64,000 nucleotides of DNA, from the NCBI RefSeq assembly GCF_003387475.1, contig NZ_QUNO01000005.1, forward strand, positions 434,001 to 498,000, given 5' to 3'. A program made the position numbers and the translations under genes. Below the pieces are notes generated by a model, which searched no databases, was not told the DNA's origin, and saw only the letters and a program-made list of their open reading frames with translations. Source of the stretch: Kutzneria buriramensis (GTDB lineage Bacteria > Actinomycetota > Actinomycetes > Mycobacteriales > Pseudonocardiaceae). Of the stretch, positions 2,778 through 9,541 are shown one piece after another; the stretch's first letter is position 1, and each line of letters begins with the position of its first letter.

Positions 2778-2828
2778 GCCCCTGCGTACGGCTTTGTGCT
2801 GACTTCTGGTCACCGATCCAGCCGATCG

Positions 2829-2842
2829 GGAGAGCGCTCCAT
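2829..2842. promoter_or_regulatory. LacI/CebR-type operator, box 2
   Basis: GGAGAGCGCTCCAT repeats the AGCGCT core and left arm of the box at 2728, about 101 bp further on (ten helical turns). It sits 19 nt before the GH3 start codon, so bound repressor would block the transcript leader. Paired sites at helical spacing suggest looping or cooperative repression. Confidence 0.55.
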
Positions 2843-2861
2843 CAACCCTGCGGGAGACGGT

Positions 2862-5800
2862 ATGCCCAGCCCTCGCGGCGCGACGACGCGCCGGTTCCGC
2901 CTGCTCTGCACCGCGTTCGCGATCATCGTGGCGGCCGGCGGGCTCGTCGCCACCGGCCCTTCGGCGCACGCCGCGCCGACCCTGCTGTCCCAAGGCAAAC
3001 CCGCCACCGCGTCCTCGGTCAACGGCGGCAACTCCGCCGCCGCGGCGGTGGACGGCGACACCGGCACGCGCTGGGAGAGCGCGTGGTCGGACCCCCAGTG
3101 GTTGCAGGTCGACCTCGGCGCGACGGCGTCCATCACGCAGGTGGTGCTCCAGTGGGAGACCGCGTCGGCGAAGGCGTACCAGATCCAGACGTCCACCGAC
3201 GGCGCCAACTGGACCAGTATCTACAGCACCACCACCGGCCCCGGCGGCACCGAAACCCTCACTGTCACCGGCTCAGGCCGCTATGTCCGCCTCAGTGGCA
3301 CCCAGCGCAACACGGGCTACGGCTACAGCCTGTGGGAGTTCCAGGTCTACGGCACCGCCGGCAGCGGCTCGTGCGGCACGAACGCCGCCCTGAACAAGCC
3401 GGCCACCGCCTCCTCCACGGAGAACGCCGGCACGCCGGCCAGCGCCGCGTTCGACGGCAACACCGGGACGCGCTGGTCCAGCGCCGCGAGCGATCCCCAG
3501 TGGCTGCAAGTGGATCTGGGCAGCAGCCAGACCCTCTGCCAGGTCTCGCTGAACTGGGAGACGGCGTACGCCAGCGCCTTCCAGATCCAGGTCTCCGCCG
3601 ACGGCGCCAACTGGTCCAGCGTCTACACGACCACCACCGGCGCCGGCGGCACGCAGACCCTCAACGTCAGCGGAACCGGCCGCTACGTGCGGATGTACGG
3701 CACCGCTCGCGGCACCGGATACGGCTACAGCCTCTGGGAATTCGCCGTCTTCACCACCGGCGGCGGCGGTGGCGGCGGCAGCTGCGCGGACCCGGTGATC
3801 TCGGGGTTCGCGCCGGTGAAGGCCTCCTCGTACGCCGGGGCGAACGCGCCCGCGGCCGCGCTGGACGGCCGGTCCACCACGCGCTGGGAGAGCGCCGCCA
3901 GCGATCCGCAGTGGCTCCAGGTCGATCTCGGCGGCACCGCCGCGATCAGCTGCGTCGTGCTGACCTGGGAAACCGCTTACGCCTCCGCGTACCGCATCGA
4001 GGTCTCGCCGGACGCCACCAACTGGACCAGCATCTACTCCACCACCGCCGGCCAGGGCGGCACCGAGACCCTCAAGATCACCGGCACCGGCCGCTACATC
4101 CGCCTGTACGGCACCGCACGCGCCACCGGATACGGCTACAGCCTGTGGGAATTCCAGGTGCACGGCACGGTCGACACCTCCACGTCCACGCCGCCGCTGC
4201 TCTCCCCGCCGACCAAGGCGCCCGCCACCACCGGCCAGTTCGCGCTGTCCGCGCCCGCGAACAACGCGATGGTGACCGACACCCGCCGCCCCACCTTCTC
4301 CTGGGCCGCCGTCGCCGGGGCCGCGCACTACCAGGTGTGGCTCAACATCAGCCGTGCCGACTACGACTTCACCGCGTCGGGCAACCTGCTCGACTTCTAC
4401 ACCAAGGTCGCCGAGCCGGCCGGCACCAGCTACACGCCGACGTGGGACATCTCGGATCGCTGGACCTACAAGTGGTTCGTGGTCTCGGTCGACGGCGGCG
4501 GGGCCACCAAGGCGTCGAACGTCAACACGTTCAGCCTGTACCTGCCGGACGTCGCCGCGGCGTCCGACGGCGTGCCGATCGTCAACGGCGCGCGGGACCT
4601 GAACAAGGACGGCACGATCGAGCCGTACGAGGACTGGCGGCAGCCGATCGCCACCCGCGTCAACGACCTGCTCGGTCGGATGACGTTGCAGGAGAAGGCG
4701 TACCAGATGTTCTACAACAACCAGGTCTACCCGCAGTCGGGCTGGATCTTCGGGCCGGCGCAGCCGCAGGACCTGGACGGTTTCCTCAAGGCGTCGGCGG
4801 GAACCCGGCTCGGCATCCCGCCGATCGCCGCCGGCGACACCATCATCGGTTACCAGACCACGTATCCGGCGCAGAGCGCGTTGGCCGCCGGGCAGGACTA
4901 CGCCCTGGACTACAAGCTCGGCGACATGCAGCGGCGCGAGGAGGTCCAGGCCGGCGCACGCGGCACGCTCGGGCCGCTGGCCGAGGTCGGCACGAAGGTG
5001 CTCTACCCCCGGATCCAGGAGGGCAACGGCGAGAACGCCCAGGTCGCGGCGGCGCAGGTGCGGGCGCTGGTGTCCGGCATGCAGGGCGGTCCGGAGCTCA
5101 ACCCGCAGTCGGTGCTGGTGACCGTCAAGCACTGGCCCGGCGAGGGCGCGGGCGGCGAGGCCGGCGTCGTGTTCGACGGCACCACCATCAAGTACACGAT
5201 GATCCCGTGGACGGCGGCCATCGAGGCCAACGCCGGCAGCATCATGACCGGCTACGCCGGCGCGTCCTTCCTCGACCCGAGCGGCGCGGGGGCCGGCAAC
5301 AGCGCGCCGATCATGAACTACCTGCGGCAGAACATGGGCTACACCGGGCTGATCACCACCGACTGGCTGCCGTCGGGCGCGTGGGTGAGCGCCGCCAATG
5401 CCGGCGCTGACGTAATGGGCGGGGCCGATCCCGGCGCGGCCGGCTTCTCCCTCGACACCTTCGCCAGCAGCGTGCCGCAGGCGCGGATCGACGACTCGGT
5501 GCGGCAGATCCTCACCGTGAAGTTCAAGCTGGGCATCTTCGACCACCCGTACGGGGATCCGGCCAACGCGCCGTACCGGTTCCACCAGCCCTCGTACGCG
5601 GCGCTGGCCAACCAGGCGTCGCGGGAATCCATGACCCTGCTGAAGAACGACGGCGTGCTGCCGGTCAAGCTCAACGCCGGCGACAACATCGTCGTCACCG
5701 GCGCGCGGGCCGCCGACGGCGCGGCCTGCTGCCTGTGGACCAGCTACTTCCACCAGGACTACGGGTCGCTGGACTTCCTGGACGCCATCAAGGCGAGGGC

Positions 5801-6347
5801 GGCTCAGGCCGGGGTGAACGTGTACCAGGACACGTCGCCGACACCGCCCAAACTCGCCGTCGTGGCGGTCGGCGAGGCGTCGTACACGCACGCCACCAAC
5901 TGGGTGAAGGAGCAGCCGTACCTGCCGCCGGACCAGGTGGCGCTGATCCAGAACTACAAGAACCAGGGCATACCGGTGGTCGTGCTGCTGGTGCTGCCGC
6001 GGCCGTACGTGATCTCCGACTGGAACGGCCTGGCCGACGCCATCGTGGTCACCTATCGCGGCGGCGAGGAGATGGGGCCGGCGGCGGCGAGCCTGCTGTT
6101 CGGCGACTACACGCCGCGCGGCAAGCTCCCCTGGCAGCTGCCGGCCTCGCTAGACCAGGTGCTCAAGCCCGGCGGCACCGACGTGCCGGCCGACGCCGTG
6201 GAGAGCTGGGACCTCCCGTACGACCTGGGGGCCACCGACGCCGAGCGGGCCGACATCCGGGCCCGCATCGGGGCCGGGCAGCCGGTGCCGCCGACGTACG
6301 GCAAGCCCTTGTACCAGTACGGATCCGGCTTGCAGGGCTGGCACTGA
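2862..6347 (+). CDS. Secreted GH3 beta-glycosidase with three discoidin (F5/8C) domains
   Basis: An 1161-residue extracellular enzyme. A Sec signal peptide (residues 1-37, ending AHA) is followed by three near-identical F5/8-type C (discoidin/CBM32-like) domains at roughly 40-163, 170-298 and 310-435, the last two separated by a poly-Gly linker. A fibronectin-like module (about 460-560) follows, then GH3 N- and C-terminal domains (about 577-900 and 917-1157). The KHWPGEG motif and the candidate nucleophile Asp834 in LITTDW are present, so a retaining beta-glucosidase or xylosidase is likely. The ATG at 2862 has a GGGAG ribosome site. Two CebR-like boxes upstream suggest induction by plant oligosaccharides. 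The three binding domains suggest attachment to a polymer or cell wall. Exact substrate unknown. Confidence 0.9.
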   Translation: MPSPRGATTRRFRLLCTAFAIIVAAGGLVATGPSAHAAPTLLSQGKPATASSVNGGNSAAAAVDGDTGTRWESAWSDPQWLQVDLGATASITQVVLQWETASAKAYQIQTSTDGANWTSIYSTTTGPGGTETLTVTGSGRYVRLSGTQRNTGYGYSLWEFQVYGTAGSGSCGTNAALNKPATASSTENAGTPASAAFDGNTGTRWSSAASDPQWLQVDLGSSQTLCQVSLNWETAYASAFQIQVSADGANWSSVYTTTTGAGGTQTLNVSGTGRYVRMYGTARGTGYGYSLWEFAVFTTGGGGGGGSCADPVISGFAPVKASSYAGANAPAAALDGRSTTRWESAASDPQWLQVDLGGTAAISCVVLTWETAYASAYRIEVSPDATNWTSIYSTTAGQGGTETLKITGTGRYIRLYGTARATGYGYSLWEFQVHGTVDTSTSTPPLLSPPTKAPATTGQFALSAPANNAMVTDTRRPTFSWAAVAGAAHYQVWLNISRADYDFTASGNLLDFYTKVAEPAGTSYTPTWDISDRWTYKWFVVSVDGGGATKASNVNTFSLYLPDVAAASDGVPIVNGARDLNKDGTIEPYEDWRQPIATRVNDLLGRMTLQEKAYQMFYNNQVYPQSGWIFGPAQPQDLDGFLKASAGTRLGIPPIAAGDTIIGYQTTYPAQSALAAGQDYALDYKLGDMQRREEVQAGARGTLGPLAEVGTKVLYPRIQEGNGENAQVAAAQVRALVSGMQGGPELNPQSVLVTVKHWPGEGAGGEAGVVFDGTTIKYTMIPWTAAIEANAGSIMTGYAGASFLDPSGAGAGNSAPIMNYLRQNMGYTGLITTDWLPSGAWVSAANAGADVMGGADPGAAGFSLDTFASSVPQARIDDSVRQILTVKFKLGIFDHPYGDPANAPYRFHQPSYAALANQASRESMTLLKNDGVLPVKLNAGDNIVVTGARAADGAACCLWTSYFHQDYGSLDFLDAIKARAAQAGVNVYQDTSPTPPKLAVVAVGEASYTHATNWVKEQPYLPPDQVALIQNYKNQGIPVVVLLVLPRPYVISDWNGLADAIVVTYRGGEEMGPAAASLLFGDYTPRGKLPWQLPASLDQVLKPGGTDVPADAVESWDLPYDLGATDAERADIRARIGAGQPVPPTYGKPLYQYGSGLQGWH

Positions 6348-6374: not shown

Positions 6375-6406
6375 TGCCTCCCGAGGAGTGGGACCCTCGG
6401 GAGGCA
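6375..6406 (+). terminator. 12-bp perfect stem-loop spanning the next gene's ribosome site
   Basis: The arms 6375-6386 and 6395-6406 (TGCCTCCCGAGG and its exact complement) form a 12-bp stem with an 8-nt loop. The right arm contains the GGGAGG Shine-Dalgarno and ends on the A of the amine oxidase ATG. It can serve as the GH3 terminator, as a translational block on the amine oxidase, or both. Confidence 0.65.
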
Positions 6407-7980
6407 TGAGGGGGATTTCGAGGCGGGACTTCCTGTCCGCGGTCGGCGTCGCCGGCGGGGCGGGCGCGATGTTCGCGACGATGGGGGCGCTCGGACTGGC
6501 CCCGACGGCCATGGGCGCGCCGGCCTACGTGCCGCCGCGGCCGTCCGACTTCCGGCTGACCGGCCGTGCGGCGGCCAAGGTGGTCGTTCTCGGCGGCGGC
6601 ATCGCCGGCCTGGCCAGCGCGTACGAGCTCGGCAAGGCCGGCTACGACTGCACGGTGCTGGAGGCGCGGGACATCGCCGGCGGCCGCAACTTCACCGTGC
6701 GCGGCGGCACCCGGCAGACCGATCTCGACGGCAACACCCAGGTCGCCCGGTTCGCCGACGGCGAGTACATGAACGCCGGCCCGGCGCGGATCGCGCAGTG
6801 GATGGTGACCCTGGACTACTGCCGGGAGCTCGGCATCCCGATCGAGGTGTTCACCAACGAGAACGCCAGCGCCCTGATCTACAACGAGCAGGCCGGCATG
6901 ACCGCGCCGGTCCGGTACCGCACCGCCAAGGCCGACATGTACGGCTACGTCGGCGAACTGCTGGCGAAGGCGACGAACCAGGGCGCGCTGGACGGCGACC
7001 TGACCGCCGTCGACAAGGAGCGGCTGCTGACGTTCCTCCAGGACTGGGGTTCGCTCGGCAAGACCGACTACCGGTACACCGGGTCGTTCCGGCGCGGCTT
7101 CTCGCCGGATCCCGGCGCGGCCGACCAGACCGGCACCGCGCTCGGGCCGCCGCCGTCGCTGTCGGACGTGTTCGCCAGCAACGTCGGCCGGACCTTCTCG
7201 TTCGAGTTCGAGTACCAGTACGCGATGCTGATGTTCCAGCCGGTCGGCGGCATGGACCGGATCCCCGCCGCGCTGGTGCGGGAGATCGGCCCCGGCCGGG
7301 TGCGGACCGGCTGCGTGGTCACCGGCATCACCAACCGGGACGACGGCGTCTCCGTGACGTACATCTGTGAGGGCGTCCAGCGCCGGATCGACGCCGACTA
7401 CTGCATCTCCGCGATGCCGCCCAACATCACCGCGCGGATCCCGCACAACCTCGGCGCGGACGTGCAGGCCGCGCTGGCGGCGTTCCCCGTGGAGAAGGTC
7501 GGCAAGATCGGCCTGGAGTACCGCAGCCGGTGGTGGGAGACCGACTACCGGATCTACGGCGGCATCACCGAGACCGACATGGACGTGGAGCACATCTGGT
7601 ACCCCTCGCACGGTTACCACGGTCCGCGCGGGGTGCTGATCGGCTACTACAACACGAAGGAGGACGCCGTCGCGTACGGCCAACTCACGCCGCCGCAACG
7701 GGAGGCCCGCGCCGTGGCGCAGGGTGTGAAGATCCACGGCTCGAAGTACCGGACCGAGCTGGCCAGTTCGTTCTCGGTCGCCTGGCACCGCACGCCGCAT
7801 ATCGAGAGCGGCTGGTCGATCTTGTTCGGCACGCAGCCGTACGAGCTGCTCAACCGGCCGCAGGGGCGGGTGTACTTCGCCGGCGACTGGCTGACCTGGC
7901 TCGTCACCTGGCAGGCCGGCGCCTTCGACTCCGCGCGGCGGGTCGTCACCGAGCTGCACCAGCGGGTGCTGAAAACCTGA
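6406..7980 (+). CDS. Tat-exported flavin amine oxidase
   Basis: A 524-residue flavin monoamine oxidase-family enzyme. SRRDF near the N-terminus followed by a hydrophobic stretch is a Tat signal, so the protein is exported folded with FAD. The FAD-binding GGGIAGLASAYELGKAG and the ARDIAGGR second motif lie at about 65-100, and the C-terminal FAD motif is in GRVYFAGDW. It probably oxidises an amine or L-amino acid to the imine with release of H2O2; the substrate is unknown. The ATG at 6406 is used; a GTG at 6388 would add six residues and lies in the loop of the hairpin that masks the ribosome site. A related enzyme is encoded at 10061-11695. The T-box leader begins right after its stop. Confidence 0.88.
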   Translation: MRGISRRDFLSAVGVAGGAGAMFATMGALGLAPTAMGAPAYVPPRPSDFRLTGRAAAKVVVLGGGIAGLASAYELGKAGYDCTVLEARDIAGGRNFTVRGGTRQTDLDGNTQVARFADGEYMNAGPARIAQWMVTLDYCRELGIPIEVFTNENASALIYNEQAGMTAPVRYRTAKADMYGYVGELLAKATNQGALDGDLTAVDKERLLTFLQDWGSLGKTDYRYTGSFRRGFSPDPGAADQTGTALGPPPSLSDVFASNVGRTFSFEFEYQYAMLMFQPVGGMDRIPAALVREIGPGRVRTGCVVTGITNRDDGVSVTYICEGVQRRIDADYCISAMPPNITARIPHNLGADVQAALAAFPVEKVGKIGLEYRSRWWETDYRIYGGITETDMDVEHIWYPSHGYHGPRGVLIGYYNTKEDAVAYGQLTPPQREARAVAQGVKIHGSKYRTELASSFSVAWHRTPHIESGWSILFGTQPYELLNRPQGRVYFAGDWLTWLVTWQAGAFDSARRVVTELHQRVLKT

Positions 7981-8014
7981 GGCGCTGCGACGTCGTCCGG
8001 GTTATCCTCTGCCG

Positions 8015-8278
8015 CAACACGTTGACGGAGACGAGTAGCCGGGATCGACGCGAGTCGGAGAGAGCCGCCGGGAGCTGCGAAGGCGGTCTCGGGTCCCCCG
8101 TGCGAAGACCCTCCCGAGTGCGGGGAGAAACGGCGCCGCGCGCCCAATGCCCCGCCGGCCGGCCCCCGTGATCGGGCCGCGACGAGGTTCCCGTCACCGG
8201 GGACGAAAGTGCGGTGGCACCGCGAGTTTCCCTTCTCGCCCGCACTCCCAAGGGGCCGACTCGACCACTGGAGTGGCG
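8015..8278 (+). ncRNA. T-box riboswitch, translational type, Asp specifier
   Basis: A T-box leader in front of a tRNA synthetase gene. The invariant bulge TGGCACC (8215-8221) is flanked by helix AGTGCGG/CCGCACT (8208-8214 with 8240-8246) and inner helix GCGAG/CTCGC (8222-8226 with 8235-8239). Upstream is a Stem I with an AGAGA bulge and GC-rich apical loop (about 8060-8090). GAC at 8107-8109, in a CGAAGACC internal loop, is the candidate Asp specifier codon. There is no terminator. Instead CACTCC (8243-8248) can pair with GGAGTG (8270-8275), which holds the Shine-Dalgarno, and this excludes the anti-sequestrator helix. Uncharged tRNA-Asp would therefore free the ribosome site. A TATCCT at 8003-8008 may be the -10 element. 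Confidence 0.88.
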
Positions 8279-9541
8279 ATGATCGCCCGAGTACTGGCCG
8301 CCGAGCTGGCCGCCCACATCGGCGAACGCGTCCGCGTCGCCGGCTGGGTGCACCGCGGCCGTGAGCTGAAATCCGTGACCTTCGTGATAGTGCGGGACCG
8401 ATCCGGTCTCACCCAGGTCGTCACCGCCGGTCCCGCGCCCGCGCAGGAGACCGTCGTCGAGGTGACGGGCCTGGTGACCGCCAACTCCAAGGCCCCCGGC
8501 GGGGTCGAACTGGTCGAGCCTGTCATCGCCGTCCTCGGCGAGGCGGTCGCCGCGCCGCCCTTCGACCTCTACCGACCAGTTGTGCCCGCGACGCTGCCGA
8601 CCATTTTGGACGGTGCGCCGGTCTCGTTGCGGCATCCCGCCCTGCGCGCTCAGTTCGAGATCGCCGCCGCCTCCGTCGCCGGGTTCCGGTCGGCGCTGGA
8701 CGCCATCGGCTGCACCGAGATCCACACGCCCAAGATCGTCGGGTCGGCCACCGAGTCCGGCGCGAACGTGTTCGGCATCGACTACTTCGGGCGCAGGGCT
8801 TTTCTGGCCCAGTCGCCGCAGTTCTTCAAGCAGTCCATGGTCGGCGTGTTCGAGCGGGTGTACGAGGTGGGGCCGGTGTTCCGCGCCGAGCCGCACGACA
8901 CCGCCCGGCATCTCGCCCAGTACACCAGTCTCGACGCCGAGATCGGCTTCATCACCGACGACCGGGACGTGATGTCCGTGCTCCGGCACGCCATCGCCGG
9001 CATGGTGTCGTCGGCTGCGTCACGCGTCGAGGCCGTGTCGCTGCTGGGTGCTCGCCTACCCGAGGTGCCGGCCGAGATCCCCGTCATCCACTTCGCCGAG
9101 GCCCAGAAACTGTTGGGAGGTAAGGACGAGATCGACCTCTCCCCCGCCGACGAGCGCTGGCTGTCGGCGTGGGCGGCGCGTGAGCTCGGTTCGGAGTTCC
9201 TGTTCGTGAGCGGGTTCCCGATGGCCAAACGGCCGTTCTATACCCACCCCCAACCCGGAAACCCCAAGTACAGCAACAGTTTCGACCTGCTTTTCCGGGG
9301 GCTGGAGCTCGTCACCGGCGGGCAGCGCCTGCACCGGCACGCCGACTACCTCGCCGCGCTGGCCGAACGCGGCGAGTCGCCCGAGGCGTACCGGAGCTAC
9401 CTCGACGTGTTCGCCCACGGCATGCCGCCGCACGGCGGTTTCGCCATCGGCCTGGAACGCTGGACCGCCCGGCTGCTGGGCGTCGCCAACATCCGGCAGA
9501 CCACGCTATTCCCACGGGACATCCACCGCCTGACCCCCTGA
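8279..9541 (+). CDS. aspS2: Aspartyl-tRNA synthetase, short archaeal-type (AspS2)
   Basis: A 420-residue class IIb synthetase that attaches aspartate to tRNA. An OB-fold anticodon domain (about 15-100) precedes the catalytic core: motif 2 in VGPVFRAEPHDTARH and motif 3 in GGFAIGLERWTARLL, ending FPRDIHRLTP as in AspRS. It lacks the roughly 150-residue GAD insertion of the usual bacterial AspRS (near 590 residues), so it is the archaeal/non-bacterial type and is probably a second AspRS in this genome. Whether it also charges tRNA-Asn cannot be seen. The ATG at 8279 has GGAG at 8270, which lies in the T-box sequestrator. Its last 36 bp overlap the convergent gene at 9506. AsnRS is the main alternative; the specifier codon and C-terminus favour Asp. 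Confidence 0.9.
   Translation: MIARVLAAELAAHIGERVRVAGWVHRGRELKSVTFVIVRDRSGLTQVVTAGPAPAQETVVEVTGLVTANSKAPGGVELVEPVIAVLGEAVAAPPFDLYRPVVPATLPTILDGAPVSLRHPALRAQFEIAAASVAGFRSALDAIGCTEIHTPKIVGSATESGANVFGIDYFGRRAFLAQSPQFFKQSMVGVFERVYEVGPVFRAEPHDTARHLAQYTSLDAEIGFITDDRDVMSVLRHAIAGMVSSAASRVEAVSLLGARLPEVPAEIPVIHFAEAQKLLGGKDEIDLSPADERWLSAWAARELGSEFLFVSGFPMAKRPFYTHPQPGNPKYSNSFDLLFRGLELVTGGQRLHRHADYLAALAERGESPEAYRSYLDVFAHGMPPHGGFAIGLERWTARLLGVANIRQTTLFPRDIHRLTP

Follow-up and report, generated by a model that had tools for sequence, protein, structure and literature searches.

The T-boxes that precede ileS genes in Actinobacteria, reportedly the subject of Sherwood et al. in 2015, are said to act on translation, and a T-box of Clostridium acetobutylicum, reportedly studied by Saad et al. 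in 2012 and 2013, is said to answer to tRNA-Asn (and Glu) and to head an AspRS/GatCAB transamidation operon. The excerpts of Seliverstov et al. 2005 (PMC1262725) report the T-boxes of Actinobacteria as lying on ileS and as translational, with no classical ones among them. According to the accessible part of a review (PMC7583486), translational T-boxes mostly have a short or intermediate Stem I, and a few have a long one. The sections of the TBDB paper at hand describe a search of Actinobacteria with the class II (truncated-Stem-I) model, and database sequences that are trimmed to the poly-U (PMC7778990). For aspartyl-tRNA synthetase (AspRS), an excerpt of PMC2494555 places a T-box on one of the three aspS genes of C. 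acetobutylicum, and additional AspRS genes in bacteria are called rare in a portion of PMC4206432. A T-box on an actinobacterial aspS was not found in the literature searched, and some of the leaders described here may have been listed earlier.

Here we describe the leader of aspS2, the gene for a second AspRS, within a window of Kutzneria buriramensis DNA (the whole 64,000-nt stretch that was analysed). Judged from sequence comparison, this leader is quite probably a tRNA-Asp-specific T-box riboswitch that controls the translation of a reserve AspRS. In a phylum where T-boxes have been described chiefly on ileS, it would add a class that is Asp-specific, has a long Stem I and appears to act on translation.

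Detection and anatomy of the leader

The initial annotation had read the region as a T-box, with a GAC (Asp) codon in the specifier loop and a TGGCACC bulge between two helices, and each of these points held in the present analysis. The covariance search with cmscan was positive: the Rfam T-box model RF00230 aligned to the leader over model positions 1-219 of 219, with 55.7 bits and an E value of 1e-11. The bulge and its flanking helices A1 and A2, as well as the GAC codon, were found at the places proposed (Table 1), and an alignment of the aspS2 leaders showed GAC in the specifier slot in 37/37. The score of the leader is below the RF00230 gathering score of 93, which is why a default Rfam scan of the window was silent, no family reaching its gathering score. 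L016 alone reaches the gathering score (93.1 bits in cmscan) and the other 34 of 35 leaders fall below it, suggesting that almost all of them would escape routine annotation with Rfam.

Table 1. Positions of the leader elements and of aspS2 in the window.
Feature	Position	Strand	Basis or remark
T-box leader of aspS2	8013..8278	+	RF00230 match 8013-8246, then putative sequestrator and ribosome site
Stem I, full length	8019..8119	+	cmscan alignment; covariation count
Stem I base	8019-8020 with 8118-8119
Specifier helix in Stem I	8027-8030 with 8111-8114
AGAGA bulge of distal Stem I	8059..8063	+	with the GCUG loop, elbow-binding module
Distal Stem I helix	8064-8069 with 8082-8087
GAC specifier (Asp)	8107..8109	+	GAA 8104-8106 before, C8110 after
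Stem II	8120..8155	+	GCGGGG 8120-8125 with CCCCGC 8150-8155; 97.1% of cells paired
Stem III	8187..8204	+	8187-8192 with 8199-8204; double-sided changes in 5/6 pairs
Antisequestrator	8208..8246	+	A1 8208-8214 with 8240-8246; A2 8222-8226 with 8235-8239
T-box bulge UGGCACC	8215..8221	+	UGGC can pair with the predicted GCCA end of tRNA-Asp
A2 terminal pair G8222-C8239	8222..8239	+	replaces the G-U described as aminoacylation sensor
Sequestrator	8243..8275	+	CACUCC 8243-8248 with GGAGUG 8270-8275; seen in folds, covariation not significant
Shine-Dalgarno GGAG	8270..8273	+	5 nt before the start codon
aspS2, archaeal-type AspRS, 420 aa	8279..9541	+	NF003483, 519.7 bits (cut-off 353)

In thermodynamic folding the whole leader was no more stable than its dinucleotide shuffles (z +0.74); whole-leader folding of this GC-rich RNA gave no signal, and comparative evidence was preferred. 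Among 24 aligned leaders, standard pairs fill 97.6% of the cells over the 39 pairs of Stem I, Stem II, a IIA/B-like element, Stem III, A1 and A2. Double-sided changes occur in 16 of these 39 pairs, against a mean of 4.6 in shuffles and 1-4 with slid partners, and RNAalifold found them in 25 of 49 pairs. In the antisequestrator, 98.8% and 100% of cells are paired in A1 and A2, with double-sided changes in 6/12 pairs. The AGAGA bulge and the GCUG loop at the tip of Stem I correspond to the module that binds the tRNA elbow. The AGAGA and G-N-U-G loop motifs are present in 37/37 leaders (which are related to one another, so that counts over the 37 are not independent), and with this module kept the leaders are not of the ultrashort-Stem-I (class II) type. 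One Kutzneria leader (L006:2737-2955) is without the Stem II region and keeps Stem I, Stem III and the antisequestrator.

On this anatomy, Stem I would hold tRNA-Asp through the GAC codon and its elbow-binding tip. The GCCA end of an uncharged tRNA-Asp would pair with UGGC of the bulge and stabilise the antisequestrator, and as long as the antisequestrator is held the strand at 8243-8248 could not cover the Shine-Dalgarno sequence, so that AspS2 would be made. With charged tRNA-Asp the antisequestrator would not be held, CACUCC would pair with GGAGUG, and translation would be off.

The K. buriramensis genome gave two T-box matches at E values up to 10, the aspS2 leader and a leader of ileS, and two matches were likewise found in each of four relatives of the genus. 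The ileS T-box of K. buriramensis (G000:C3:567921-568094) scores 30.3 bits and has a UGGU bulge followed by a frame that matches ileS; its Stem I appears short by eye. Four ileS T-boxes of family f31 (L089, L093, L095 and L096) have an AUC specifier and score 59-68 bits. All six T-boxes used for comparison precede ileS.

The second AspRS, its distribution and its putative role

The gene downstream had been proposed to encode a second AspRS, of archaeal type, and both parts of this proposal were borne out. The product is over the NF003483 cut-off, compared with 144.2 bits vs a cut-off of 443 for the bacterial AspS model, and the genome contains one bacterial-type AspRS besides AspS2. A gatB gene was also found, and no asparaginyl-tRNA synthetase (AsnRS) was detected over the cut-off in this genome. 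The nearest PDB enzyme is Thermus thermophilus AspRS2 (E 3.1e-118), and the AspS2 of Kutzneria sp. 744 is 89% identical. A histidine and a proline in the anticodon-binding loops are the mark of a non-discriminating AspRS. In the alignment, H25 and P73 of AspS2 match 1n9w and 1wyd, the latter of which we take to be of the non-discriminating type, and 1b8a has W and K at these positions. AspS2 thus follows the sequence rule for a non-discriminating AspRS, and activity on tRNA-Asn is predicted.

Archaeal-type AspRS was found over the cut-off in 36 of 394 genomes of the class. A T-box match lies just upstream of the gene at 24 of 45 loci (K. buriramensis and 23 of the 44 others), and a weak case (L027) and a split case (L100) add two further leaders, giving 26/45. 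At L030, L042 and L044 the match is limited to the Stem I portion of the model. When 150 genomes in the genus of G238 were searched, a divergent AspS2 gave 16 matches, in 15 genomes; L041 apart, 11 of the remaining 15 matches were retrieved with their loci, and all 11 have the T-box. In total, 37 T-box leaders were found at 56 distinct archaeal-type aspS loci, and none was found at 19 loci (L020, L022, L023, L028, L029, L034, L035, L037-L040, L043 and L045-L051).

On a tree of 43 proteins the presence of the T-box needs 5 changes, 4 of them forced by well-supported branches. The L041 enzyme groups with the eight enzymes of family f51 (100/100), its two marker positions are N and K, and its gene carries the same GAC T-box, suggesting that the RNA follows aspartate whichever subfamily is controlled.

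Several loci show peculiarities of their own. The L021 leader comes from a bin labelled Bacillota, and its protein lies on a long branch among actinobacterial ones. Genome G454, from the same genus as G238, encodes the divergent AspRS twice, and the L117 copy has an Asp T-box. Relative to L030, the L042 and L044 enzymes contain a low-complexity insertion of ~30-34 residues close to where the N-terminal OB-fold ends. In G065:C895 (L127 and L100), ~3 kb with other frames separate the bulk of aspS2 from its N-terminal portion and the T-box; one of these frames resembles an XRE-type regulator, and an assembly error is possible. In Actinocrispum wychmicini (L016:3010-3246), a tRNA-Trp and two tRNA-Leu genes are located just downstream of aspS2.

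In K. buriramensis, the upstream neighbours of the leader encode a flavin amine oxidase (6388-7980) and a GH3 enzyme that contains three stretches of F5/8 type C (2796-6347), and neither is matched in any of the compared regions from other genera. A conserved gene cluster around aspS2 was considered and rejected: in a comparison of three loci with six regions, the frames of at least 160 aa that match between genera were aspS2 and frames overlapping it only.

Bacterial AspRS was searched for in 37 genomes with the archaeal-type enzyme, 28 of them drawn from 30 loci of the class-wide search and 9 from another search, six further over-cut-off genomes, all of family f51, having been set aside. It is present in 29 of the 37, counts that are not independent since the genomes are related. 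The T-box precedes aspS2 in 21 of the 37 genomes, and all 21 also have the bacterial AspRS, suggesting that the T-box marks a reserve enzyme. The 16 genomes without an aspS2 T-box comprise eight with the bacterial enzyme and eight without it, the latter all of family f51. The gatB gene was found in 37/37 genomes, in 36 of them over the cut-off.

A switch that responds to tRNA charging would induce the second AspRS when the housekeeping AspRS is blocked or aspartate is lacking, and we infer that AspS2 is a stand-alone reserve AspRS induced by undercharged tRNA-Asp. Such a reserve AspRS may be induced when the main AspRS is inhibited, and the locus suggests that a spare synthetase gene can come with a charging sensor of its own. 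A more specific role, possible but on balance unlikely, would be self-resistance against a natural product that targets AspRS, with the T-box as its sensor and the RNA mechanism unchanged. Spare synthetase genes serve this purpose in antibiotic producers according to the part of PMC9437257 at hand (SerRS, IleRS and TrpRS), and the bacterial AspRS that accompanies AspS2 in 21/21 T-box genomes would suit it. However, around the loci of K. buriramensis, G032 and G379, compared with the six regions, only aspS2 is common between genera.

Mode of control and choice of tRNA

A helix that sequesters the Shine-Dalgarno sequence and excludes the antisequestrator had also been proposed in the initial annotation. 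The complementarity and the exclusivity stand: the CACUCC strand overlaps the 3' strand of A1, sharing 8243-8246, so that the two states are mutually exclusive. Covariation of the sequestrator in fixed columns was not significant and no better than in shuffles. The Shine-Dalgarno region pairs with the strand at -10.6 kcal/mol, vs -7.7 kcal/mol for its own shuffles, and the comparison of native with swapped Shine-Dalgarno pairing gave P 0.06, or P 0.30 with 14 representatives.

The segment from the 3' strand of A1 to the start codon was on average more stable than its shuffles, with a mean z of -1.40, negative in 24 of 26 leaders, with -0.59 for the K. buriramensis leader. Over the same number of leaders (26), the mean probability that the Shine-Dalgarno sequence is unpaired was 0.22 without the 5' strand of A1 and 0.38 with A1 forced. 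Forcing A1 opens it in 15/26 leaders, leaves it within 0.05 in 7/26, and closes it further in 4/26 (L018, L024, L026 and L027); among the leaders of the divergent subfamily it is more open with A1 in 11/11. In 8/26 leaders, K. buriramensis included, A1 is already part of the best 3'-domain fold without tRNA, so that energies alone predict no off state there.

Termination of transcription, the mode of most T-boxes, would accord with the non-significant covariation of the sequestrator and with the full-length Stem I, which is usual in transcriptional T-boxes according to the portion of PMC7583486 available. A pattern scan also gave one terminator-like site, at 8210-8224, but this coincides with the region around the bulge in the antisequestrator itself, with the tail AGTTTCCCTT. 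Moreover, no run of at least four T was found between the bulge and the start codon in any of the 37 leaders, and the gap from the bulge motif to the start codon is only 59-77 nt in all of them, which makes termination rather improbable. Translational control, the mode initially assigned, is the best reading of these leaders; it is supported by the anatomy and by the lack of a terminator, with moderate to weak statistical support for the sequestrator.

The identity of the tRNA was considered from both ends of the putative contact. The bulge reads UGGC in 31/37 leaders and UGGU in 6/37. Position 73 was read at 30 tRNA loci among 54 tRNA matches of the K. buriramensis genome: tRNA-Asp and tRNA-Asn have G73, as do tRNA-Ser-GCU and tRNA-Trp, U73 occurs in tRNA-Thr with each of the three anticodons sampled, and tRNA-Ile has A73. 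The G73 of tRNA-Asp was found in 9 of 10 genomes searched, K. buriramensis included, and tRNA-Asp was not retrieved from the tenth (G141). The nine include four genomes with the UGGU bulge (G021, G524, G551 and G563), where a U-G wobble would be needed. The bulge base thus speaks for Asp or Asn rather than Thr or Ile, and the GAC codon points to Asp.

In the specifier loop, the 3' strand has 7 nt in 36/37 leaders and 8 nt in L021, and the base after GAC is C in 29/37 and A in 8/37. The rule given in an excerpt of the TBDB paper (PMC7778990), by which the specifier is sought first at positions 2-4 counted from the bulge's 3' end, gives GAC when applied to this leader.

It is very improbable that the switch senses tRNA-Asn, as would befit an enzyme with non-discriminating marks (H25 and P73) in a genome without AsnRS over the cut-off and with gatB, and for which the T-box on the transamidation operon of Clostridium acetobutylicum would reportedly be a parallel. 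Although tRNA-Asn also has G73, the slot reads GAC and not AAC in all 37 leaders, and the GAC T-box is also found ahead of the divergent subfamily, where H and P are replaced by N and K (L041). A Thr reading (codon ACC or ACA at 8108-8110), which would keep the usual spacer base after GAA, explain a strand one nucleotide shorter than the GAA-G-AUC-A of the four ileS T-boxes of related genomes and turn the C or A after GAC into synonymous third-place variation, is least credible of all, since U73 of tRNA-Thr pairs with neither UGGC nor UGGU, L021 retains the spacer and reads GAA-C-GAC-A, the downstream gene encodes AspRS in every case, and the TBDB rule yields GAC. The preferred reading remains a GAC specifier for tRNA-Asp.

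The sensing site and comparison with known systems

In the part of the review at hand (PMC7583486), the G-U pair at the end of A2 is described as the main steric sensor of 3'-aminoacyl-tRNA, and a purine critical for function stacks on the codon-anticodon helix, where the ribosome has C1400. In the leaders studied here the terminal pair is G-C in 33/37, G-U in 3/37 and, by alignment, A-U in L021, and the purine after the specifier is replaced by C in 29/37. The CGUCC strand is kept in 6/6 ileS T-boxes from K. buriramensis and related genomes. The 5' flank of Stem III is mostly GAG right before the stem, and seems shorter than the published RRRxG pattern.

These deviations point to an altered sensing site, and a different mode of sensing is putative; the lack of the sensor G-U and of the purine in most leaders might weaken discrimination against charged tRNA. 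More tentatively, and with somewhat less than even confidence, the actinobacterial Asp T-boxes could be a lineage of their own whose sensing site has been rebuilt (a specifier loop shorter by one base, C, like C1400 of the ribosome, where the stacking purine would be, and a Watson-Crick A2 pair). Such T-boxes would discriminate charged from uncharged tRNA-Asp by other steric means, and would occur as a self-contained inducible cassette with both of two divergent subfamilies of archaeal-type AspRS. With the proposed aminoacylation-sensor pair swapped by nature, one can test directly how charged tRNA is rejected by T-boxes.

Compared with the translational ileS T-boxes of Actinobacteria, as far as the excerpts of PMC1262725 describe them, the Asp leaders share the phylum, the opposition of antisequestrator and Shine-Dalgarno sequestrator (putative in the Asp leaders), the bulge and a synthetase gene as target. 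They differ from them in the use of tRNA-Asp instead of tRNA-Ile, in the full-length Stem I with elbow motifs, in the predominance of UGGC, in a terminal A2 pair that is mostly G-C where those have G-U, and in a target that is an additional enzyme.

The order of Stem I, Stem II, the IIA/B-like element, Stem III and the discriminator is that of the long-Stem-I transcriptional T-boxes of Firmicutes (RF00230, for example on tyrS). In contrast to these, the Asp leaders have no terminator but a putative sequestrator, a specifier-loop strand of 7 nt and an altered sensor pair. The likeness to Thermus thermophilus AspRS2 (1n9w, 3kfu) is one of the enzyme, which is of archaeal type and non-discriminating, with H and P at the marker positions. 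From the C. acetobutylicum T-box, which reportedly serves an operon, the leader differs in its GAC specifier and in the single gene that it precedes. With that organism it shares, to the extent covered by the excerpt of PMC2494555, the placement of a T-box on one of several AspRS genes.
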